Shown: one piece after another, positions 9,355-63,329 of the stretch | Layout of the letters: each line of letters begins with the position of its first letter | How positions within the stretch are numbered: position 1 is the stretch's first letter | Assembly: GCA_029204225.1 (NCBI GenBank) | Contig: CM055099.1 | Coordinates: 49,683,294 to 49,747,293, forward strand | Direction of reading: 5' to 3' | Source of the DNA: Diphasiastrum complanatum | Lineage: Eukaryota; Streptophyta; Lycopodiopsida; Lycopodiales; Lycopodiaceae | DNA: 64,000 nucleotides | Made by a program: the position numbers and the translations under genes | Notes under the pieces: generated by a model | Databases searched by the model: none | The model's input: the letters and a program-made list of their open reading frames with translations, nothing else | Told to the model about the DNA's origin: nothing

Positions 9355-10457
9355 GCTCCCTCTCAAAGGATGATAGCTTCACAATCTCGAGACTGCTCCT
9401 CTGTCTCTCAAAAAGTCCTTTGTCCAGGACTTTGGTGAAGATGTCAACAGCCATGTCTTTCGTTCCAAAGAAGGTGGTCTGCAACATCTTCTTTTCAATT
9501 AGATCCCTGATCAAGTGGTACTTGATCGTAATGTGCTTTGTTCTGGAATGGAACACAAGATCTTTCGTCAGGTGTATTGCAGAGGTGTTGTCCATCTGCA
9601 AGACCAGAGACTCATTCCTTGTTTCACCCAATTCGTCCAGGAACTATCTTAGCCAGATTATCTCATTGGCCATCTTTGCTGCTGCAACGTACTCTGCTTT
9701 GTAGGATGACTGGGCTACAACGGTCTGCTTCTTGCTGACCTAGAGAACTGCTGCTCCTGATGCGATGGTGCACCCTCTTGAGACACTTTTACAATCGTCC
9801 TTGAGAGATGTCCAACTAGCATCGCTGTAGCAAAGTATCCTGAAAACCTGCATCATGACAATAACACAGGCCATAATCCCTCGTTGATTGAAGATATTGT
9901 AAAATACGTTTTGCAATCTTCCAATGTGTCGAGCCTTGATTCATGCAGAATTGGCTCATTTGGAATACTGCATAAGCAATATCAGGATGTGTGTTGTCTG
10001 CAAGGTACATCAATGACCCTATCAGCTTCCTATAAGATGTGAGCTGCATCTGTTCTCTCTCTTTCTCAGTCTTCGGACAGTCATCATTTGTCAGCACCAT
10101 CCCTGCGAGCATTGAAGTATTTGCTCCTTTGCAGTTCAGCATCCCAAAGTCCTCTAGGATCTTTTGGGTGTATCTAGACCGGTGAAGGTATAACCTACCT
10201 CCCTCATAGTCCCTTTCAATTTGCAAGCCTAGATAACACTTGGTTTCTCCCAGATCCACGATCTCGAAATGTTTTGAGATGTCTGTCTTCACTTCAGCAA
10301 TCAGCTGCTCACTCCTGCAAAGTATCAGAGTGTCGCGCACGTATACAACCACAATGATGATCTGCCCATCTGTAACTCCGACATATATATAGGAATATGC
10401 CAACAGAGCTTGAATCCTAATAATTTCAGGGCTTAATCTTTCTTCTTGTACCACCAT
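9355..10457 (-). pseudogene. copia reverse transcriptase-RNase H remnant, family B
   Basis: The right part reads the RT C-terminal half (DLGETKCYLGLQIERD, then YRKLIGSLMYLA) and enters RNase H. The left part reads the RNase H C-terminus (QMDNTSAIHL, FHSRTKHI). The RT catalytic motif is degraded to YVRD at about 10337-10348. Stops lie near 9640 and 9750. At the 5' side the sequence jumps to protease at about 10457, so IN and the RT N-terminus are deleted. It runs into the family-B LTR at 9354. Confidence 0.85.
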
Positions 10458-18165: not shown

Positions 18166-18880
18166 TCTGGTCTTGTGATGGTTAGATATATAAGTCAACC
18201 AACTAGCTTTCTATAGAGAGTAATGTCCTCAAAGGAGCTTTCATTACCTCTTATAATTAGCTTTACATAGGAGTAATCTTTCATTACTCCATAGGTGTAT
18301 CACAACACTTTGCTTCTACTATATGAAATCATCTTAGAATAAAAGTAGCATACTTCTCTTGACAAATGAAAGTAGATTGAGAATATCTAATCACTTCTAT
18401 TCCTAAAATGTAATGCAAATGACAAAGATCATGCATCTCAAACTCCTTCATGAGAGCACTCTTGATATCATCAACATCTTGATTGTTTCCACCAGTCAAG
18501 ATGATATCATCCACATAGATTAGCAAGATAGTAACATCATTTCCAGCAAATCTAAAATATAATAAATGATCATACTCACTCATAACAAAATTTTGAGAGA
18601 TTAATAATGTGTTAAGTTTGGCATACCAACAACTTGGTGCTTGCTTAAAACCATACAAACTCTTTTGTAGAAGACACACATGATTTGGCTTTGTAGGTGA
18701 AATGTAGCTCTCAAATTACTCCATGTACACTTCCTCCTCAAGGTCACCATTCAAAAAAGCATTTGTAATGCCCATTTGCCATAGATCCCATCCAAAAAGA
18801 GTAGCAAGAGAGATGATGTCCTAAATGCTAACCATCTTTGCCATGGGTGCAAAGGTCTCATCATAATCAATTAGTGCAAG
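18166..18880 (-). pseudogene. copia reverse transcriptase fragment
   Basis: Open from 18679 to 18329 and readable outside that with stops. It has ITNAFLNGDLEEEVYME, SLYGFKQAPSCWYAKLN and an intact YVDD active-site motif (LLIYVDDIIL, about 18500-18530). It then enters the TRPDLSF region before the IN fragment. The 5' side ends at 18880, where a plus-strand LTR and polypurine tract begin. Confidence 0.85.
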
Positions 18881-36920: not shown

Positions 36921-37382
36921 TGTTGAAAATTGTCACTTCTCACTTGACATTGGTTCATGTAAATATTGATCAAACATTAGAATATGTTGATGATCTATTT
37001 TCACACGTGTGGAGCCTGTTCCCACGTGTGAAAGGATGTACTTTTCATGTTTGTATATATCCAAATTGATTTTGTATCATTCTAGTTAGTGTGAACATGA
37101 AATGACTAGTTTTTAGTCAAGTTGACTAGTCACCTACAAATTAGCTTTTCCTTGCATGTGCATGAGTAAATGCTCCCACATGGCAAGTGAATGTTCACAC
37201 GTGTGTATAGAGTACTAGAAGATAAGAGTTGACCATTTTCCTTAGATCCCATTTTGTAGGGAATATTCTTATATTCTAGGAGACTAGCTTTTTGGATTTT
37301 AGTCATATTCTAGAAGGTCAACTATTGGATAAGGATCAAGGATGGATCAAATGGATAGATCTGAGTGATGTGGCACTCTTCA
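36921..37382 (+). mobile_element. family F 5' LTR, left piece
   Basis: Starts TGTTGAAAATTGTCACTTC, identical to the 3' LTR start at 47712. It is broken at 37382 by the insertion whose target duplication is CTTCA (37378-37382). It contains G-box palindromes at 37001-37010 and 37196-37205 and a CCACGTGTGA at 37021. Confidence 0.93.
37378..37382. repeat. target-site duplication, left (CTTCA)
   Basis: CTTCA directly precedes the LTR at 37383 and is repeated at 43814-43818 after the other LTR. A perfect 5-bp duplication is what copia integrase makes. Confidence 0.93.
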
Positions 37383-38037
37383 TGTGAAAAATACAGATCC
37401 TAAGTGGATCTAAACTCCAAAATCATTGGCTTGAATGCTTGCACTCCAAACTACATAAGCTAGGAATTGGCAACACATTCTATGCTACCTAGAATGCAAA
37501 GAACTTGATCAAAAAGCATTTATCACAAATGGAAACTTCCATAAACATCAAGTGCGGCCCAAAATAGCATTATACAATCCATAATACATCAGCCTATCAC
37601 TTTTGGAAAGCACCTAAGATCATACACAATAGCTTGAAGACAATACACACAACAATGCTCTCAATGGAGGAAGAAACAATGACAATGATCTATTGATCTC
37701 AATGAAGCATACAAAAGGTTTCTCCAACCTGTTCTCCACGACTTCCCTACTATTTATGGATGAGGAAGATGACTCTCTCTCCTCTCTCTAGAAGGTACTT
37801 GACCCTAGATATTCCCTATATAGGAAAAATAGCTAAAAATGGCTTATATGACCAAAATACATCAAAATGGTCTCATTTTGAAGGGTATGAAGTTTGACAC
37901 TTCATCATACTGAAAAAATACAGTAAATAAAAACATTGTGGCCTGGTTCACACGTGTGAAACTCCAGAACCAAAACTATTTACAATTTTAGCCAATTTAG
38001 GCCTCAAACTAGCTAGGAAATGTTGACAATTTTCACA
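37383..38037 (-). mobile_element. 3' LTR of the young copia (655 bp)
   Basis: Begins TGTGAAAATTGTCAAC at 38037 (minus) and ends at 37383. It has a TATA-like CCTATATAGG at about 37814-37823 and a TTCACACGTGTGAA palindrome at 37947-37960. The gag-pol stop codon TGA (38033-38035) lies inside the first bases of the LTR. Confidence 0.95.
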
Positions 38038-41000
38038 CTCCCTCTTCAACATTGGATGCTAGTTTCAACATAGTCTTTGAGCACATTCCAAGATTAGATC
38101 TATGCATTAAATATAGGTCCTTTCCCAATGGTTTGGTGAAGATATCAGCCACACACTCCTTTGAAGAGACATGTTGAAGCTCCACCTCTTTGGCAATGAC
38201 TTGATCTCTCACAAAATGGTGAGCAATCTCAATGTGCTTGCTCCTTGCATGAAAAACAGGATTGCTTGCCAAGCTTTGGGCTGAAAGGTTATCACAAAGT
38301 ATGATTGGAGTCTTCTCTGGTTCCAGCAAGTGAAGATCCAATAACATCCTCTTGATCCAAAGAATCTCCTTGGTGCATGTTGTTAATGCCTTGTACTCGG
38401 CTTCGGTGGAAGATAGAGAGATAGTTGGTTGCTTCTTTGATAGCCATGAGACCACTCCATCTCCAAGATAGATTGCAAAGGCACTTTTTGACTTCCTATC
38501 CATTTGATCACCTGCAAAATCTGAATCTGAAAATCCACAAAGGTTAGGTGTAGTACCTCCATACAAGATGCCAAAATCTCTAGATCCCGAGATGTATCTA
38601 AGTACTCTCTTTCCTAGCTTCCAATGAGCCTCACTAGGATCTTGCATAAATTGACTTAGTTTACCAACCACAAAGCTTAGATCAGGTCTTGTGATGGTTA
38701 ACCATATAAGAGATCCTATTAGCTTTCTATAGAGAGTAATTTCCTTGAAGGATCTTTCATTACTTCTTGTAGTTAGCTTTACATTTGATTCCATAGGAGT
38801 AGAAACAACTTTACAATCTTCCATATGAAACCTTTTTAGAATAGAGTTAACATACTTTTCTTGACATATGAATGTAGATTTAGAAGTTCTAATAATCTCT
38901 ATTCCTAAGATATAATGAAGTTTACCAAGATCTTGAATTTCAAACTCTCTTTTGAGTGCCATCTTGATTTCATCTATATCTAGATTGTTACCACCACTTA
39001 AGATAATGTCTTCAACATAGATCAAAAGTAAAGTGATATCATTTTCATTCAATCTAAAGTAGAGAGAATGATCATACTCACTCATAACAAAGTTTTGAGA
39101 AAGTAAGAAGGAATTGAGCTTAGCATACCAACTCCTTGGTACTTGCTTTAGCCCATACAAACTCTTTTGGAGATAGCACACATGATTAGGCTCATCATGT
39201 GAAACATAGCCCTCGGGTTGCTCCATGTAAATATCTTCTTCAAGATCACCATTCAAGAAGGCATTAGTAACATCCATTTGCCACATATCCCAATCATAAA
39301 GAGTTGCAAGAGAGATTAGGATTCGAATAGTTACCATCTTTGCCACGGGTGCAAAGGTCTCATCATAGTCAATACCATATTCTTGAGCATACCCCTTTGC
39401 CACCAACCTTGCCTTGTACTTGTTGATTGATCCATCTTGATTTGTCTTGATCTTGAAGATCCACTTACAACCAATTGCCTTCTTGTCCTTTGGAAGCTTT
39501 ACCAACCTCCATGTGTTGCTTTTGATGAGTGCTTGATGCTCATGATCCATGGCTTGGATCCATTCCTTCTTTTGAATTGCTTCACCTACACAAGTTGGTT
39601 CATCAAAAGAGGTAAGAAAAGCAAAGTTAGAGTTGTCCACCACTTGCTTTCCTTTTTCATCATAGGTTAGCCTTGATGGCTTAGCCCTTTGCCTTTGAGT
39701 CTTCCTTGAAGTTTGCTTTGGAGTGGCATCTCCATCTTCATCCAAGACATCTTGCACATCATGATGATTAGTAGGCACATCAACATCAACATCAACAACA
39801 TTGGAAACATTCTCTTCATGAAAGATGACATCCCTACTTATGACAACTTTCTTTGTAGAAGGAATGTACACTTTGTAAGCCTTGCTTACTTCACTATAGC
39901 CAACAAACACACCCTTCTTTGATGAAGGATCTTCTTTAGTTCTATCATCAAGTGTGATATTGACAAAACATGTACATCCAAAGATCCTACAATGCTTGAC
40001 ACTCGGCCTTCTACCATAAAGAACCTCATGAGGAGTTTTACCATCCAAGGAAGCACTTGTCCATCTATTACATAGATAGTTAGCACATGCTAAAGCTTCC
40101 CCCCAAAAAGACTTAGCAAGATTAGCATGTAGTCTCATTGCCTTGGCACATTCACAAAGGGTTCTATTCTTCCTCTCGGCCACTCCATTCTGTTGTGGAG
40201 TCCTAGGACTAGACATCTCCCTCTTAATCCCATGTGCTATACAAAAGTCTTTGAACCTATTTGAGGTGTATTCCCCTCCATTATCAGATCTTAAGCATTT
40301 GATCTTTGTATTGAATTGGTTTTCCATTTCATTCTTGAACTTGACAAATGCAGCAAACACTTCATCCTTACTTTTAAGAAGATAGATCCAAGTATACCTA
40401 CTAAAGTCATCAATGAAAGTTGCATACATCTTTGCCCCACCATTGCTAGTTGTACTAGAAGAATGAATATCAGAATGCACAAGTTGAAAAGCTTCTTTAG
40501 ATCTAGAAGTAGATCTAGAATAAGCAAGTCTATGAGATTTGGACAAGGCACAATGTTCACAAACACTATTGTTTGCAACAAGACTTTTAGGGAGACCAAG
40601 AACAAGCTCTTTCTTTGCCATTACCTCCAAAGATTTGAAGTTGGGATGGCCCAACCTCTTGTGCCAAACTTCTTGGTTTGTCAATTGCTCCCTAGCCATA
40701 CATCCTTCATGATTAGAGATCACACATGCATCAAGCTTGAAAAGTTTACCATGCCTCCTACCTTGAGCAATCAAGGATCCACATTTACTTATCAAACATG
40801 CATCTCCAATGAACTCCACATCAAGTCCTTTGTCAATCATTTGACTTACACTAAGCAAATTCTTAGTGATTGAAGGAATGTACAAAACATTTTCAAGATT
40901 TGCTTTCCTATTTGTTGAAAGGGAAATAGGAATAGTGCCTATGCCTTTGATGTCACATTGACCATCATTTGCAGTGTAGATGATGTTACCTTCTCCCTCA

Positions 41001-41986
41001 TAAGACAATAAGGATGTAAAGTATTCCTTATGTCTTGTCATGTGAGATGAGGCTCCACTATCAATCCACCAAGGATCATTATCATCTATGTTGGCTAACA
41101 AACTTGAAGTCATAACAAGTGATTCACATGTGTTATGTTCTTCCTCATCTATTGTAAGATTTCCTTGCCTCTCTCCTTGCTCTCTTTTCTTCTTATAACA
41201 TTCATTTGCAAAATGACCTTTTATCCCACAATAAAAGCAATTGAACTTTGACTTATTGTTCTTAGTAGAAGAGGAAGAGGAAGAGTGATCATCATGATCA
41301 AAGTTACCACCTTTGGACCATTTCCCTTTGCCTTTACCTTTGCCCTTGAATTTGCCTTTTGTGAAGAAAGCCTCTTCACCTCCACCTTGCAAGGATGCAC
41401 CATCAAGCTTTGATTGCAACCTATGTTCTTCAGCCAATAAGATTTCTTGCAAGTCAACCACACTTGGCAAGACTCTTTGAATGGAAAAACTTTGCACAAG
41501 GTTAGCATGTTCATTTAGCAAACCATTCAACATAACTTGGACTATTTCACCATCTTTTATGTTCTCATCAATGCATGCTAAATCATCACTTAGGGACTTA
41601 ACTCTCAAGATAAATGCATGAGCACTTTCACCCTCTCTTTGCCTACTAGAAAATATTTGTCTCCTTAGGGTCAATACCCTAGATGTGGACTTTGATTCAA
41701 AGAGCTTCTTTAAGGCATTCCATGCCTCACTTGCACTTTGACACTTTCCAACTTCCTTGAGAAGTTCATTTGTAACATTCATTTTAATGATATGAAGAGC
41801 CCTTTTGGCCTTCTTATCAAACCTTTGTTGCTCTTGAAGTGTGAGAGGTCTCTCTTCAATTTCTGCAACTATGTCCATGAGTTCATTCAACTCAAGTAAG
41901 GACTCCATCCTCACTTTCCAAGTAGAGTAGTTTGATGAACTCAACCTTTCACTAGACTCTAGCATGATCCCACCATTGGAAGCCAT
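38033..41986 (-). CDS. copia gag-pol polyprotein, 1317 aa, RT motif YVED
   Basis: A single uninterrupted frame encoding all proteins for the copia life cycle: particle assembly, polyprotein cleavage, reverse transcription and integration. Seen along the protein: gag helices (1-200), a Lys/Gly-rich tract, zinc knuckle C250-C253-H258-C263, protease Asp309 in IDSGASSHM, integrase zinc site H442/H447/C476/C479, and integrase catalytic triad D506, D568, E604 with the usual 35-residue D-E spacing. RT has Asp905 (QMDVTNAFLNG) but its active site is Y990-V-E992-D993: a GAT-to-GAA change from the family's YVDD. RNase H has D1154 and the usual KHIEIAHHF end. The start ATG 41986 gives a normal copia N-terminus. 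Known RT biochemistry predicts that Asp-to-Glu at this position cripples polymerisation, so this copy is probably not autonomous despite its intact frame. Confidence 0.96.
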   Translation of the reverse strand: MASNGGIMLESSERLSSSNYSTWKVRMESLLELNELMDIVAEIEERPLTLQEQQRFDKKAKRALHIIKMNVTNELLKEVGKCQSASEAWNALKKLFESKSTSRVLTLRRQIFSSRQREGESAHAFILRVKSLSDDLACIDENIKDGEIVQVMLNGLLNEHANLVQSFSIQRVLPSVVDLQEILLAEEHRLQSKLDGASLQGGGEEAFFTKGKFKGKGKGKGKWSKGGNFDHDDHSSSSSSTKNNKSKFNCFYCGIKGHFANECYKKKREQGERQGNLTIDEEEHNTCESLVMTSSLLANIDDNDPWWIDSGASSHMTRHKEYFTSLLSYEGEGNIIYTANDGQCDIKGIGTIPISLSTNRKANLENVLYIPSITKNLLSVSQMIDKGLDVEFIGDACLISKCGSLIAQGRRHGKLFKLDACVISNHEGCMAREQLTNQEVWHKRLGHPNFKSLEVMAKKELVLGLPKSLVANNSVCEHCALSKSHRLAYSRSTSRSKEAFQLVHSDIHSSSTTSNGGAKMYATFIDDFSRYTWIYLLKSKDEVFAAFVKFKNEMENQFNTKIKCLRSDNGGEYTSNRFKDFCIAHGIKREMSSPRTPQQNGVAERKNRTLCECAKAMRLHANLAKSFWGEALACANYLCNRWTSASLDGKTPHEVLYGRRPSVKHCRIFGCTCFVNITLDDRTKEDPSSKKGVFVGYSEVSKAYKVYIPSTKKVVISRDVIFHEENVSNVVDVDVDVPTNHHDVQDVLDEDGDATPKQTSRKTQRQRAKPSRLTYDEKGKQVVDNSNFAFLTSFDEPTCVGEAIQKKEWIQAMDHEHQALIKSNTWRLVKLPKDKKAIGCKWIFKIKTNQDGSINKYKARLVAKGYAQEYGIDYDETFAPVAKMVTIRILISLATLYDWDMWQMDVTNAFLNGDLEEDIYMEQPEGYVSHDEPNHVCYLQKSLYGLKQVPRSWYAKLNSFLLSQNFVMSEYDHSLYFRLNENDITLLLIYVEDIILSGGNNLDIDEIKMALKREFEIQDLGKLHYILGIEIIRTSKSTFICQEKYVNSILKRFHMEDCKVVSTPMESNVKLTTRSNERSFKEITLYRKLIGSLIWLTITRPDLSFVVGKLSQFMQDPSEAHWKLGKRVLRYISGSRDFGILYGGTTPNLCGFSDSDFAGDQMDRKSKSAFAIYLGDGVVSWLSKKQPTISLSSTEAEYKALTTCTKEILWIKRMLLDLHLLEPEKTPIILCDNLSAQSLASNPVFHARSKHIEIAHHFVRDQVIAKEVELQHVSSKECVADIFTKPLGKDLYLMHRSNLGMCSKTMLKLASNVEEGV
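38038..38047 (-). other. polypurine tract
   Basis: The minus strand reads GAAGAGGGAG immediately before the 3' LTR. It primes plus-strand DNA synthesis. It also encodes the last residues (EEG) of the polyprotein. The same tract-LTR junction occurs at 18886 and 48896. Confidence 0.88.
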
Positions 41987-43146
41987 GATTCTAATGTTTC
42001 TTCAACTTTTAGGTTTTGTCCTAAAGCACTTAGCACTCACTTTTCTCTCAACAAATGATAGATAAAGAGATCTATGAAGATTTAGGACCCTAAAACACTT
42101 CTATCTTGAACCTAGATGGTTTCCAAGCATAGAAAGGAAGATTGAAACACATGCAACACTTTGCACACACTAAGAATGGATTACAAAATCAAACCAACCT
42201 GAACACACTCTTGCTTAAGCTCTCAAACTTTCCAGCAAGTGACCAAATCAAGTTATGGTGTGAAGAGTTACTTGCATTCTTAGAAAATACCCAAAACTAG
42301 GATGCCAAGATTACCTAGTAATGAACAAACTTGATCAACATATGATCAACACACTAAGATATTGATTCAACCTGTAAAACCACATGTAAACCACACTTCT
42401 AAAAGTTTATAAACTCCAGCAAGTGATAAATACAAGATTTAGAGGTGAATGAATGAGCACACTTAGTGAATCACAAGACTAGCTTCACTATCTTGTCAAA
42501 TCTTGGTGTTTAGATGTAGATCTAAGATCACTTCACATGAGAATGTTCCTCAACCTGTTAAGAACCTGAAAACACACTTGCATAATGGTTAACACCTTCC
42601 AGCAAATCCTCCAATCAAATTACATAAGGAGAGTTACTTACATGCTCAACAAAGTACACCAAAATTTATGCCAAAATTGATGACAATCTTTACAATATGC
42701 TCTTCACAATGGAGCTTACAATATGTTCACCCAAAAAAGGGGATCTTTCATCCAAATGGGAGCTTTGCTCAGCCTTTAGGAGAATTACAACTCACTCAAA
42801 AGAGCATTTGTCATCCACTTAAGGAGAAGTTTCATCCACTTAAGGAGAGTGTTCATCCAAGAATGGAGATTGTCAACAATAGGATTGAAAAGAACATTGT
42901 TAGTATTGAATATGCACAAGCCTCACAATCACAAATGATTAGGTGTTATGATCTGATCCAAAATAGCTTCTTTTCAGCCTCTGATCTTCAATAGACCTGA
43001 AATATGCTTTTGATCCACAAGTTCAACTCACAAAACAAAGGTTAGTAAGATTTGATCAACAAAGCAATGCAAAATCATGCTAGAACTTGATCAAACATCC
43101 AAATATCACCAAAAATGGAATACTTACTATAAATAGAAGCCAACCA
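41987..43146 (-). other. long leader of the young copia
   Basis: About 1.16 kb between primer binding site and gag start, long for copia. It holds about three degenerate ~170-180-bp repeats (42205-42680) with AACCTG...CCAGCAAGTGA and AGAGTTACTTGCAT blocks. A 22-bp direct repeat (TTCATCCACTTAAGGAGA) lies at about 42831-42865. No coding potential is convincing on either strand. Confidence 0.6.
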
Positions 43147-43158
43147 GCTCTGATACCA
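43147..43158 (-). other. primer binding site of the young copia
   Basis: The minus strand reads TGGTATCAGAGC directly after the 5' LTR. It pairs with the 3' end of initiator-Met tRNA to start minus-strand synthesis. Confidence 0.93.
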
Positions 43159-43813
43159 TGTGAAAAATACAGATCCTAAGTGGATCTAAACTCCAAAATC
43201 ATTGGCTTGAATGCTTGCACTCCAAACTACATAAGCTAGGAATTGGCAACACATTCTATGCTACCTAGAATGCAAAGAACTTGATCAAAAAGCATTTATC
43301 ACAAATGGAAACTTCCATAAACATCAAGTGCGGCCCAAAATAGCATTATACAGTCCATAATACATCAGCCTATCACTTTTGGAAAGCACCTAAGATCATA
43401 CACAATAGCTTGAAGACAATACACACAACAATGCTCTCAATGGAGGAAGAAACAATGACAATGATCTATTGATCTCAATGAAGCATACAAAAGGTTTCTC
43501 CAACCTGTTCTCCACGACTTCCCTACTATTTATGGATGAGGAAGATGACTCTCTCTCCTCTCTCTAGAAGGTACTTGACCCTAGATATTCCCTATATAGG
43601 AAAAATAGCTAAAAATGGCTTATATGACCAAAATACATCAAAATGGTCTCATTTTGAAGGGTATGAAGTTTGACACTTCATCATACTGAAAAAATACAGT
43701 AAATAAAAACATTGTGGCCTGGTTCACACGTGTGAAACTCCAGAACCAAAACTATTTACAATTTTAGCCAATTTAGGCCTCAAACTAGCTAGGAAATGTT
43801 GACAATTTTCACA
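43159..43813 (-). mobile_element. 5' LTR of the young copia (655 bp)
   Basis: Same length and sequence as 37383-38037 apart from one base. It holds the element's promoter. On the minus strand the G-box palindrome (43723-43736) lies about 78-91 nt from the LTR start and the TATA-like motif about 215 nt from it. Confidence 0.95.
43591..43600 (-). promoter_or_regulatory. probable TATA box of the young copia 5' LTR
   Basis: CCTATATAGG, palindromic, in the U3-like part of the LTR downstream of the G-box palindrome. It is assigned by position and sequence only. Confidence 0.55.
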
Positions 43814-43818
43814 CTTCA
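43814..43818. repeat. target-site duplication, right (CTTCA)
   Basis: Partner of 37378-37382. Removing one copy with the element restores the family-F LTR continuity seen intact at 48165-48185. Confidence 0.93.
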
Positions 43819-44219
43819 CACGTGTTAAGGCCTGCTGGACTATACCAGACTCATGGATGTACTTGATCCATAAAAGGATCATCATTTCGCTAAGAAGATT
43901 GATGAGACTTTTACACTCTACACTTTTGTGATATTTCTAATCATTTGTCTTGTGATTTTTATGTATGATTGCTATCTAGTATCATTGTACTTGTTGTTTC
44001 AGGTGCAAGCCGTACAGTGGACAGTACTCCACACGTGTAAGGCCGCTCTCACTAAAAAATGATGTGTTGATCCATTGCTCTTGCTTAAATCCAAGTGTAG
44101 TGAATCTAGATCAAGATCTAATGTGTAGAACTTGATAGATTCATTGATTAAGCAACCAATAACTCTCTATGATTGTAAAGTACAATCATTATTGTCCTAA
44201 AAGTTGTAAAATTTATCAT
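43819..44219 (+). mobile_element. family F 5' LTR, right piece
   Basis: Continues the LTR broken at 37382 and ends AAATTTATCA next to the primer binding site. It matches 48175-48573 with about a dozen substitutions, several of them C/T or G/A. It contains CACACGTGTAAGG at about 44030. Confidence 0.92.
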
Positions 44220-44231
44220 GGTATCAGAGCT
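44220..44231 (+). other. primer binding site, family F
   Basis: TGGTATCAGAGC immediately after the LTR. From here to gag at 44814 is a non-coding leader with one more TTCACACGTGTGAA at 44379-44392. Confidence 0.93.
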
Positions 44232-44813
44232 AAGTAAGAGAGTGATCATTGAATCATAAATCTTGTAAAGATCATTGGCAAAATTTGTTTTTGGCCAATA
44301 CTAGTGAGGGCGAGTTCTTCTAGAGTGATAGCTTGTAATCATTTGGATCAAAACGACTTGGAGGCTGTGTATGTACTTTTCACACGTGTGAAACCGTACA
44401 GTAACTTTCAATTCAAGCTACTTTGTGTTTGTTGGTCCCAAAATCACAATACTAGTTCATTTTTGGTGCTTTTTGAAGCACAATATTGATCCAGATTCAT
44501 TCTAGCTAATGCCTATGACCAAATAGTGTTTTGGATCATTGAAGCATTTCTTTTTAGAGTCTAAGATCAGATCTTAGAGGCTGATTTGTTCAGATCCTTA
44601 GTTGAAGTGAAATCTCTAAGAAAAGTGTAAAGCAATTTTTTGTTGTGAGAGTGAAACCTAGGAATTTCTGGTAAGATCTTTGAGTATCATTCAAGCTTGT
44701 GTGCTAGTTCGATAGAGACAAGCCTATAGGCATTCTAGTAAGCTTTAGGCCTTTTTATAGATCTTTTAAAATTCAAAAATCTTTGTGATTTTTAAAAGAG
44801 CATTCATTCTAGA

Positions 44814-45839
44814 ATGTCATCCATGGGTGGATATTTGATGGAATCAAGTGAGAGACTCACTTCCACAAATTATTCCATTTGGAAAGTGAGAATGGAATTA
44901 CTCCTAGTGATCCATGATCTATATGACATAGTTCAAGGAGTAGAGGAAGAGCCTCAAACTCCCCAAGAACAAGCCAAATACAAGAAGAGAGCAAGATTAG
45001 CTCTACTGCATAAAGTAAATGTATGCAATGACCTCTTGAAAGAGTTTTGGGATTCATTAAAGAGCATTTATGAATCCAACAATACTTCAAGAATCCTCAT
45101 GCTAAGAAATCAAGTTTTCCAAAGCATGAAAGGAAGTGGAGAGAGTGGACAAGAGTATGTCCTTAGGATCAAATCTCTTAACAAGGAGCTAAGTGCAATA
45201 GGAGAGAAGATCCAAGATCAAGAACTAGTACAAATCATCTTGAATGGTCTAGGTGATGAGTTCACCAACTTAGTCCAATCATTTGCCATTCAAGACTCTC
45301 TTCCATCCATTGAAAAGTTGCACAATGTTCTTGTGGCCGAGGAGAGTAGGCTTCTACACCTCAAGACAAGAATGGATAGCATGTCACTTAATGGAGGAGA
45401 GGAGAAAGCTAACTTTACATCTAAAGGCAAGAAGAAGCAAAATCCATTCAAGAAAAATCAAGGCAAGGAGGCTGAGATGAAGAATGGAGGATCTACCTCC
45501 AAAGGCAAAGTGAAGAACAAGGCAAAACTAAAGTGTTTCTTTTGCGGAAAGAAAGGACACTTTGCCTCAAAATGCTACTTGAAGAAGAATCAACAAGCCA
45601 AAGGAGATCAAGGGAACATTGCTCAAGAGGAAGAAGAAGAGGATGGATTCAACACATCCTTAATGGTTGCATCTACACCAACTTCAAGTCAAGACACATG
45701 GTGGATAGATAGTGGGGCTAGTTCCCACATGTCCTTTAACAAGCATTATTTTTCTACTCTTCTATCTTGTAACAATGATATTAAGTTACAATACACTTGC
45801 TCCTACACCCCTCAACAAAATGGGGTGGAGGAAAAATAG
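44814..45839 (+). pseudogene. copia gag-protease with integrase fusion, family F
   Basis: A 341-codon frame. Gag starts MSSMGGYLMESSERLTSTNY and lacks about a dozen residues near 45043 (LLKEF joined to WDSLKSIYES). The zinc knuckle CFFCGKKGHFASKC is at about 45537-45578 and protease WWIDSGASSHM at 45701-45733. Near 45790 a deletion joins protease directly to the end of the integrase core (YTCSYTPQQNGVEEK), removing the pre-integrase region and the first two catalytic Asp residues. Gag and protease could still be made. The frame closes with a stop at 45837. Confidence 0.85.
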
Positions 45840-47698
45840 GAGTCTATGTGAGTGTGCAAAGTCCTCGAGGCTTGATGCATCACTTCCCATCTCATTTTGG
45901 GAGAAGCCATAACATGTGTTAATTATTTGTGTAATAGACTTCCTAGTAGTGCTATAGATGGGATCTCACCTTATCCAGCCTTGTTTGATAAGAAACCCAA
46001 TGTAAAAGATTTTAAGATCTTTGGATGTACTTGTTATGTACACATTCCTTTGGAGACTAGAAGGAAAGAAGATGCTACCTCCTTCAAAGGAATCTTTGTT
46101 GGCTATGGAGGAAATAGCAAGGGATATAGGATATATGATCCTACATCCAAGAAAGTAAAGGTAAGCAAGGATGTACTTTTTGATGAGTCACAATTTGCTA
46201 AGAGCTTGTCAAATGGATCTAACCCATTGTGCATTGAAGATCTTGACAAATTCGAGGAGGATCTTGACAAACCCGAGGATGGAGATTTGGATCCGAGTCA
46301 AAAGGGGCCGAGAAGATCATCAAGGAGCAAGGCCGAGCCCTCAAGGCTTACCTATGTGGACAAGGGAAAGCAAAAGGAAGGCTCTACATCTTCTACCCCT
46401 TACTCTTTTTTAGCTACATTGCTTGAAGAACCATCATCTTTTGAAGAAGCATATAAATCTAAAGTTTGGAGAGATGCAATGCAAGTAGAGTATGATGCAT
46501 TAGAAGAGAATCATACTTGGAATCTTGTAAATCTTCCAAGAGGAAAGAAACCACTTGAATGTAAGTGGATTTATAGAATTAAGTACAATCAAGATGGATC
46601 TATTAGTAAGTACAAAGCTAGGCTTGTTGCTAAGGGATTTCTAGGATTGGATTATGAAGAAACATTTGCACCTGTAGCTAAGCTTGTAACTATTAGATTA
46701 ATCATTTGCATTGCTACTTTGTTCAAATGGGATCTCTACCAAATGGATGTGACAAATGCCTTCTTGAATGGCTTCTTAGAAGAGGAAATCTACATGATGC
46801 AACCCGAGGGCTTCATCAAGGTTGGTGAGGAGCAAAAGGTGTGCTACTTAAGGAAGAGCCTATATGGCTTGGCAATTGTACTTTCATAAGTCAATCTAAG
46901 TATGCTACTTCCATTCTTGAAAGATTTGGTATGAAAAATTGTAAGGGGATTGACACTCCTATGGAGCATGTTGTGAAAGCAACTAATGAAGTGATGAAGC
47001 ATCCTTTGAGGACATCACCCTCTTTAGGAAGCTTATAGGCTCTCTAATCTATTTAACCATCACTAGACCTGAATTAAGTTTTTGTGTAAGCAAGTTGAGT
47101 CAAAGTATGCAAGCTCCTTTAGTTCATCATTGGAAAAGTGCCAAGAGAGTACTTAGATATGTTTCTAGTACTAGATTTTTTGGCATACTTTATGAAGGAT
47201 CTAACTTGCACTTGAGAGCCTACTCGGATTCAGATTTTGCAGGTGACAAGATGGATAGGAAGTCCATTAGTTCATTTGCAACATTTCTTTGTGGAGGAGT
47301 GATATCTTGGCTTTCCAAAAAGCAAGATACTCACTATCTTCTTGTGAAGCCGAGTACAAGGCATTGACTTCAACAACCAAAGAGCTCCTATAGCTAAGAA
47401 GACTCTTGATAGAACTACATGTGCTAGAGGCCGAGGAGATCCCTTACATATTTTGTGACAATCAAGCTTCTCAACAAATTGCTTCAAATCTATCTTCCAT
47501 GCTAGAACAAAGCATATTGAGATAGCTCACCAGTTTGTGAGGGAGAAGGTACAATCCACGGAAGTGCAACTACATCATGTACCATCATCCGAATGCATAG
47601 CTGATATCTTAACCAAACCATTGTCCAAAGATCCATTTTTTAATTTAAGATATGCTCTTGGAATTGTAGATAGATGTACACTAGATTTGCCAAGTTAG
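45840..47698 (+). pseudogene. copia integrase end, RT and RNase H remnant, family F
   Basis: Integrase C-terminal region and linker (45897-46400, SRLTYVDKGKQ), then the RT fingers and palm start (KCKWIYRI-type, YQMDVTNAFLNG at about 46737-46775), open to 46889. Near 46875 about 80 codons are missing: SLYGL is joined to sequence just before FISQSKYATSILERF, so the YVDD active site is deleted. RNase H is readable to 47698 with a frameshift near 47330 and stops. It ends AGTGAGGAGGAG, a polypurine tract, before the 3' LTR. Confidence 0.87.
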
Positions 47699-47711
47699 AA
47701 GTGAGGAGGAG

Positions 47712-48573
47712 TGTTGAAAATTGTCACTTCTCACTTGACATTGGTTCATGTAAATATTGATCAAACATTAGAATATGTTGATGATCTGATTTCACACGTG
47801 TGGAGCCTGTTCCCACATGTGAAAGGATGTACTTTTTATGTTTGTATATATCCAAATTGATTTTGTATCATTCTAGTTAGTGTGAACATGAAATGACTAG
47901 TTTTTAGTCAAGTTGAGTAGTCACCTACAAATTAGCTTTTCCTTGCATGTGCATGAGTAAATGCTCCCACATGGCAAGTGGATGTTCACACGTGTGTATA
48001 GAGTACTAGAAGATAAGAGTTGACCATTTTCCTTAGATCCTATTTTGTAGGGAATATTCCTATATTCTAGGAGAGTAGCTTTTTGGATTTTAGTCATATT
48101 CTAGAAGGTCAACTATTGGATAAGGATCAAAGATGGATCAAATGGATAGATCTGAGTGATGTGGCACTCTTCACACGTGTGAAGGCCTGTTGGACTATAC
48201 CAGACTCATGGATGTACTTGATCCATAAAAGGATCATCATTTTGCTAAGAAGATTGATGAGACTTTTGCACTCTACACTTTTGTGAGATTTCTAGTCATT
48301 TGTCTTGTGATTTTTATGTATGATTGCTATCTAGTATCATTGTACTTGTTGTTTCAGGTGCAGGCCGTACAGTGGACAATACTCCACACGTGTGAGGCCG
48401 CTCTCACTAAAAAATGATGTGTTGATCCATTGCTCTTGCTTAAATCCAAGTGCAGTGAATCTAGATCAAGATCTAATGTGCAGAACTTGATAGATTCATT
48501 GATTAAGCAACCAATAACTCTCTATGATTGTAAAGTACAATCATTATTGTCTTAAAAACTGTAAAATTTATCA
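47712..48573 (+). mobile_element. family F 3' LTR (862 bp)
   Basis: The intact partner of the split 5' LTR. G-box palindromes lie at about 47791-47801, 47986-47995, 48170-48183 and 48384-48397, so four copies of CACACGTGTG occur in one LTR. It ends TTTATCA at 48573, followed by TTCAT. Confidence 0.93.
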
Positions 48574-48896
48574 TTCATGCATGAATGGAATGCTATGGAT
48601 CAAAAGGATTAACTTGATGGATTTTCAAAAGTGTCCAATCATCTTTTGTGATAATATTTCAGGTCAAAGTTTGGCAAGCAATCTTGTTTTTTATGCAAGG
48701 AGCAAACATATCGAAGTGGCTTATCATTTTGTGAGAGAACAAGTCATGGAGTAGGAAGTGGAGCTTCAACAAGTCTCATCAAGGGAGTGTGGGGCTAATA
48801 TCTTCACCAGATCATTGGTAAAGGACTTGTTTATGAAGCATAGAACTCATCTTGGAGTACTATCAAAATCTATGCTAATATTAGTTGAAGAGGGAG
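48574..48896 (+). pseudogene. old copia derivative, 3' part (RNase H)
   Basis: Continues the RNase H gene interrupted at 36920: MLWIKRINLMDF, CDNISGQSLASN, RSKHIEVAYHFVREQ, with a stop at 48752. It ends in GAAGAGGGAG, the family-A polypurine tract. With 35605-36920 it forms one deletion derivative split by about 11.65 kb of nested elements. Confidence 0.88.
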
Positions 48897-59001: not shown

Positions 59002-59646
59002 TGTTAAAAATTCACAATTCTAGCTTGACTAGTTTTGGTCATATGACTTGTAAATAGTTAGATGGTCATGATGTGGCTTGTCACACGTGCCAAATAGCAT
59101 AGGATTCCATTCATAAGGATGTTCTAAAGTAGACCTAAGTGTTAGAACCTTTGGAATGAGTCCAAAATATGCTTAGATACAAGGGAGAAAAAATAGGAGC
59201 TATTTTTGGTAGTTTTTGCATTGTTGAGGGATCTCCAAGATTCCAACCCTAACCTGGTAGGGATGAAAGATCCACCAAAATTAGCATTAGGAATAGGTTT
59301 AGGGCTACTCGTACCTGCCCAAAACCGTGATGGATCATGTATATATAGGTGATGATATCTCACCAAAATCAATCAAGCAATTTCATGTTTTTTCTCTCAT
59401 AATGGTGCAATTGCTCTCTATGTTCATAATTGTTTGAGTACTTGTGTACAGTACTTAGACTATGGGAGGCCGTACTTTCACACTTGTGAAGCCTTCTTCA
59501 AGGATTTGGGCCATTTAGTGAGGTTCAAGCATAGATTTTTTATGGATTTTGATGGTTCAACTTGTGCTAATCTTATGAAATCATAATCTATTGTTTCCCT
59601 CATCATTTCAAGTGTTTTAGGATCCTTATTTGCTGTAATCTTTACA
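59002..59646 (+). mobile_element. family I 5' LTR (645 bp)
   Basis: Starts TGTTAAAAATTCACAATTC and ends TTTACA. It has a TATA-like GTATATATAGG near 59338-59348 and an imperfect palindrome TTCACACTTGTGAA at about 59477-59490. Confidence 0.94.
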
Positions 59647-62647: not shown

Positions 62648-63329
62648 TGTTAAAAATTCACAATTCTAGCTTGACTAGTTTTGGTCATATGACTTGTAAA
62701 TAGTTAGATGGTCATGATGTGGCTTGTAACACGTGCCAAATAGCATAGTATTCCATTCATAAGGATGTTCTCAAGTAGACCTAAGTGTTAGAACCTTTGG
62801 AATGAGTCCAAATTATGCTTAGATACAAGGGAGAAAAAATTGGAGCTATTTTTGGTAATTTTTGCATTGTTGAGAGATCTCCAAGATTTCAACCCTAACT
62901 TGGTAGGGATGAAAGATCCACCAAAATTAGCATTAGGGATAGGTTTAGGGCTACTCATACCTGCCCAAAACCGTGATGGATCATGTATATATAGGTGATG
63001 ATATCTCACCAAAATCAATCAAGCAATTTCATGTTTTTTCTCTCATAATGGTGCAATTGCTCTCTAGGTTCATAATTGTTTGAGTACTTGTGATTACTAA
63101 TGATTATAGGATTGAATGTAGGTCTGGTGTACAGTACTCAGACTGTGGGAGGCCGTACTTTCACACGTGTGAAGCCTTCTTCAAGGATTTGGGCCATTTA
63201 GTGAGGTTCAAGCATAGATTTTTGATGGATTTTGATGGTTCAACTTGTGCTAATCTTATGAAATCATAATCTATTGTTTCCCTCATCATTTCAAGTGTTT
63301 TAGGATCCTTATTTGCTGTAATTTTTACA
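62648..63329 (+). mobile_element. family I 3' LTR (682 bp)
   Basis: Partner of 59002-59646. It keeps the 37 bp lost from the 5' copy (at about 63092-63128) and a perfect TTCACACGTGTGAA at 63160-63173. It follows GTGAGGAGGAG, the polypurine tract. Confidence 0.94.

Follow-up and report, generated by a model that had tools for sequence, protein, structure and literature searches.

The consequences of altering the acidic residues of the YxDD box of reverse transcriptase (RT) have been described for several retroelements. In Ty1, as far as the sections of PMC2148107 on these mutants go, polymerization was completely abolished by substitutions at either D129 or D210, D211N retained activity but lost transposition, and changes that suppress a mutation of the Asp next to D210 mapped to RNase H. 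In Ty3, D213E was partly tolerated in vitro and every active-site mutant was lethal for transposition, according to the account of the active-site mutants in PMC5371799, while D185E serves as an RT active-site mutant of HIV-1 in the relevant part of PMC7560218. Ty1 D210, Ty3 D213E and HIV-1 D185E all alter the first acidic residue of YxDD, as does the genomic copy described here, and in Ty3 and HIV-1 the substitution is the identical Asp-to-Glu change; however, the Ty1, Ty3 and HIV-1 mutants were made in the laboratory, whereas the present copy is a natural genomic singleton. In architecture it is no different from plant Ty1/copia elements, which commonly have a single ORF encoding gag, protease (PR), integrase (IN), RT and RNase H in that order, TG...CA long terminal repeats (LTRs), a 5-bp target site duplication (TSD), an initiator-Met-type primer binding site (PBS) and a polypurine tract, and it is set apart from its own family by private point changes only.

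The element, hereafter the window copy (the window being the whole 64,000-nt stretch of DNA that was analysed), is a 6,431-bp Ty1/copia element on the minus strand spanning 37383-43813. In element orientation, its 655-bp 3′ LTR lies at 37383-38037 and its 655-bp 5′ LTR at 43159-43813, both on the minus strand; the LTR ends are TGTGAA...TTCACA, and sequence comparison revealed a single mismatch between the two repeats (37577 versus 43353) as well as a perfect 5-bp duplication, CTTCA, at 37378-37382 and 43814-43818. Adjoining the 3′ LTR is GAAGAGGGAG (38038-38047, minus strand), which we take to be the polypurine tract, and TGGTATCAGAGC, found at the position of the primer binding site (43147-43158, minus strand), is presumably a PBS of the initiator-Met tRNA type; both were read directly from the sequence. 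The gag-pol ORF (38033-41986, minus strand), taken from the ORF list and matched by Pfam, encodes 1317 amino acids without a break, and its stop codon falls barely within the 3′ LTR. The original prediction had described two 655-bp LTRs with one difference, a perfect target duplication and an intact 1317-codon frame, and on each of these points it was borne out.

When the ORF was cut into five pieces, Pfam matches were obtained in four of them: RVT_2 (E 1.5e-75, defining the RT piece at 38807-39544, minus strand), Retrotran_gag_2 (1.5e-23), rve, SH3_retrovirus, gag_pre-integrs and Pol_BBD. The C-terminal piece (257 amino acids) had no Pfam match. The zinc knuckle scored slightly below the Pfam cut-off and was present by simple pattern, as were the protease DSGA (residue 309) and the motifs of integrase (504-601), RT (858-994) and RNase H (from 1153). 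Motif positions and Pfam matches together give the domain order gag-protease-integrase-RT-RNase H, with integrase upstream of RT. The assignment to Ty1/copia is based on an RVT_2 RT combined with a copia-type gag, on the order PR-IN-RT-RH, on TG...CA LTRs with a 5-bp TSD, and on a PBS and a polypurine tract flanking the LTRs, the last two being putative assignments. An autonomous element would also possess the complete catalytic Asp triad of RT, and at this point the window copy has YVED instead.

The window copy interrupts the 5′ LTR of a copia element that is older and lies on the plus strand. Once the window copy is removed, the joined flanks (36921-37382 and 43819-44219, the two parts of an LTR split across 36921-44219, plus strand) are colinear with the unsplit 3′ LTR at 47712-48574 (plus strand), with 97.2% identity over 863 bp and no break at the junction, which shows that a single, clean insertion event took place and left one target duplication. 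The older element (36921-48574, plus strand) has LTRs that are 97.2% alike, gag at 44796 and an incomplete pol. Elsewhere in the window, direct repeats at 59002-59446 and 62648-63092 (plus strand, 97.3% alike) enclose gag and a YVDD RT and are probably the LTRs of another copia element. The statement that the other RTs in the window keep YVDD was right for the four motifs that it named (at 18506, 21336, 55054 and 61668) but overlooked an RT fragment with YVRD in place of YVDD at 10332-10343 (minus strand).

Codon 992 of the window copy (39011-39013, minus strand), which specifies the first acidic residue of the YxDD box (39008-39019), is GAA (Glu) in the assembly sequence and yields YVED, as had been reported. 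No solved structure was matched in sequence searches with the RT piece, whether it was used by itself or in a profile of three rows, and the predicted equivalence of residue 992 with the metal-binding Asp is therefore based on the YxDD motif and RVT_2 membership. By analogy with the Ty1, Ty3 and retroviral mutants, we infer that transposition in cis would be lost, and the Ty1 and Ty3 results make this well supported; polymerase activity may not be lost entirely. The earlier expectation of a nearly inactive enzyme fits the Ty1 mutants described in PMC2148107 but is too strong for the in vitro activity of Ty3, where the D-to-E change was partly tolerated in the experiments that PMC5371799 reports on this residue.

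The family to which the window copy belongs is a large recent burst. A 47-base pattern around codon 992 had 2,115 matches in the genome at ≤3 mismatches; the only zero-mismatch match was the window copy, and the others among the matches listed had one mismatch and GAT. A 65-base pattern covering the LTR/internal border had 2,307 matches at ≤3 mismatches, a count that includes partial copies (L028, for instance, is an LTR piece alone). Family size is thus some 2,000 copies in the 1.74-Gb genome. Six near-identical copies were rejected as a complete sister set, as the pattern searches gave more than 2,000 places; the DNA search that gave the six skips common words.

We aligned 27 copies including the window copy (L009-L015 and L018-L037), of which 24 were used for rate estimates after L015 (from an indel-rich contig), L028 and L034 (partly N) had been dropped. 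The sample from contig C1 consists of the 20 copies that head the border-pattern list. Divergence from the window copy was 0.22-0.49% in the 27-copy alignment, and LTR pairs of the 24 copies differed at 35 of 15,198 sites (a mean of ~0.23%). Plant substitution rates are 7e-9 to 1.3e-8 per site per year. At these general rates, which may not be those of the host, the mean insertion age of the 24 copies is ~90,000-160,000 years; that of the window copy, under the same proviso and with the wide error of a single LTR difference, is ~60,000-110,000 years. Judged against the window frame, the ORF is free of gaps and substitution stops in 15 of the 24 copies, the window copy among them, and YVDD copies with an open frame therefore exist. 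Two LTR subtypes, distinguished by T or C at 37597, are represented in the sample in nearly equal numbers (11 and 12).

The state of codon 992 across the family was determined by a genome-wide census in an exact 22-base context, in which silent GAC and copies with any other change in those 22 bases fall outside the count. GAT (Asp) was present at 2,079 places; the YVDD sister copies for which the original prediction had proposed a search are thus abundant. GAA or GAG occurred at one place, the window copy, and TAT (Tyr) at two (G000:C4:47638308 and G000:C16:13622431), while codons for Ala, Gly or Val, and likewise for Asn or His, were found at none of the places with this exact context in the genome. 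Neither the zero-mismatch 47-base match nor the exact 22-base context revealed, genome-wide, a second YVED copy or, with it, a separate YVED lineage, which would need at least two genomic copies with the codon. Many young YVED copies, which had been put forward as the sign of a functional variant, were accordingly not seen in that context. Among the aligned copies, codon 992 was readable in 18 of the 20 from C1 and was GAT in all 18; it was also GAT in five of the six first sisters, the sixth, L015, being unreadable owing to an inserted base. L015 was rejected as a second YVED copy, its GAA in the alignment being a product of that inserted base in an indel-rich contig.

Whether an active-site mutation carries meaning in a copy that is young and still open depends on the size of the family and on the private mutation rate. 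The window copy has 6 private internal substitutions, compared with a mean of 5.5 for all 24 copies. The 103 private ORF changes in these copies comprise 24 synonymous changes, 75 nonsynonymous changes and 4 stops, a neutral pattern that lies close to the expected proportions (22.6, 71.4 and 6.0%, respectively). The four sample-private ORF changes of the window copy are all amino acid replacements, with no silent change among them, but four are too few to mean much, given that 79 of the 103 private changes in the sampled ORFs either replace an amino acid or introduce a stop. From the private-mutation rates of the 24 copies, the lesions expected at codon 992 in 2,115 copies are ~0.6 Asp-to-Glu, 1.3 Ala/Gly/Val and 3.7 Asn/Tyr/His, or ~5.6 in total (the difference from the 2,082 copies seen in the census is negligible). 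In the exact context we observed 1, 0 and 2, respectively, that is, three lesions (P(≤3) = 0.19). A lesion of the YVED type is therefore expected from the size of the family, and with three lesions found against ~5.6 expected, one such copy is unsurprising. Taken together, these counts make YVED look like a one-off lesion in an amplified family, at a frequency that neutral mutation predicts, and give no ground for reading it as remarkable.

LTR variants that are private to one copy bear on the timing of the Asp-to-Glu change: a variant in one LTR dates from after insertion, and a variant in both from before it. Across the 23 copies with usable LTR pairs, 29 private variants were present in one LTR and 8 in both, with five one-LTR differences at sites variable in other copies left out. 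Excluding the window copy (28 and 7), the probability that a private internal change is later than insertion is 0.66 per site (0.48-0.83). We infer that the change at codon 992 most likely followed insertion, with odds of about two-thirds (0.48-0.83), and that the remaining odds fall mostly to a copying error during the founding cycle. Of the two origins initially offered, a change after a recent insertion is thus the better supported, whereas nothing speaks positively for the copying of a defective genome in trans, since the 47-base and exact 22-base searches gave no further copy with the codon. Copying in trans is also not required, since an error by a normal YVDD enzyme during the element's own reverse transcription would give the same outcome.

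The LTR variants of the window copy itself, of which one is shared by its two LTRs and the other confined to one of them, each private in the sample, do not favour a late change; per site they lean towards an earlier one, and they decide nothing. The variant shared by its two LTRs is likewise present in the LTR pair of another copy, L038, and is therefore not private genome-wide. A>G/T>C changes account for 30 of the 133 internal private changes versus 1 of the 29 one-LTR changes (Fisher p 0.018), an excess suggesting that replication errors contribute to the internal class; A>T changes do not discriminate.

With one partial exception (L039), no sub-lineage defined by the rare alleles of the window copy was found. 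In the genome allele search, and with the window copy included each time, the LTR allele at 37421 occurred at 13 places, the residue-249 allele at 3 and the residue-1167 allele (RNase H) at 7. Six of the 13 places with the 37421 allele were read: the two window LTRs, two in L038 (C1) and two in the C407 copy, L039. L038, with the rare LTR allele in both LTRs and GAT at codon 992, shares no rare internal allele with the window copy. L039 (G000:C407:48350-54000) shares the adjacent rare alleles at 43129 and 43197 and, being only partly alignable, no other rare allele of the window copy among the readable sites; its leader is near-identical, its LTR is strongly diverged past about 43405, and it is perhaps a template-switch product. 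Eight 2-kb pieces from carriers of the residue-249 or residue-1167 allele contained no further rare allele of the window copy over the parts that could be compared (L043 is alignable only to 41605, and L041 is gapped over 43197). The residue-168 allele is present in the partly N copy L034, and the 43129 allele in L035. Two carriers of the residue-1167 allele, L040 and L041 (C1 near 34.25 and 34.27 Mb), lie ~30 kb apart in opposite orientation and also have a variant at 41484 in common; they are perhaps sister insertions or a local duplication. The rare alleles are shared singly or as one short block, fitting recurrent mutation or template switching, and switching between family members in bursts is documented for Onsen in Arabidopsis in the part of PMC5668417 that deals with it.

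Our reading, to which we assign a probability of roughly 0.87, is that the window copy is a recent, transposition-dead copy of a lately amplified Ty1/copia family, its Asp-to-Glu change being private and, for most of the odds, post-insertion. Copies with an intact YVDD enzyme would have produced it; codon 992 would then have changed after insertion (about two chances in three) or otherwise mostly by a copying error on a YVDD template in the founding replication cycle, and the frame would still be open since little time has elapsed, that is, through youth and not through function. Alternatively, a YVDD copy could have supplied the RT that copied, in trans, a packaged genome already carrying YVED. 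Non-autonomous LTR elements move in plants (as treated in part of PMC8704663), co-packaged family members recombine in bursts (as described for such bursts in PMC5668417), and about one-third of private variants are older than insertion; however, three copies that each share a rare allele with the window copy (L038 and two C1 residue-1167 copies) carry GAT, the pattern and context searches found no second copy with the codon, and a founding-cycle error suffices for a pre-insertion change without any defective parent. We therefore consider packaging in trans unlikely.

Somewhat less likely again is a sequencing or assembly error behind the GAA at 39011-39013. Assembly errors probably exist, contig C2178 (the source of L015) having 42 gaps relative to the window element, but the window copy lies on the large contig C8 (70.7 Mb), its frame is without indels and it carries an average number of private substitutions. 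It is highly improbable that YVED is a working variant, in which a YVED RT sufficient for retrotransposition, possibly aided by a compensating rare change at residue 1167 of RNase H, would have made the window copy. The partial tolerance of Asp-to-Glu by Ty3 in vitro and the RNase H location of the Ty1 suppressors would be compatible with such an enzyme (in the mutant descriptions of PMC5371799 and PMC2148107, respectively), but the Ty3 mutants reported in the former were lethal for transposition, YVED copies have not proliferated in the exact 22-base context across the genome, and of the six other places with the residue-1167 allele, the census in that context gives GAA for none, while two were seen to have GAT.

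The observation behind the original prediction is correct and was made with care, but what it concerns is ordinary: a young copy, in all likelihood transposition-dead, of a highly amplified copia family. A more useful by-product than the lesion is the family of some 2,000 copies, in which errors of reverse transcription, seen in both LTRs, can naturally be told apart from mutations that follow insertion, seen in one.
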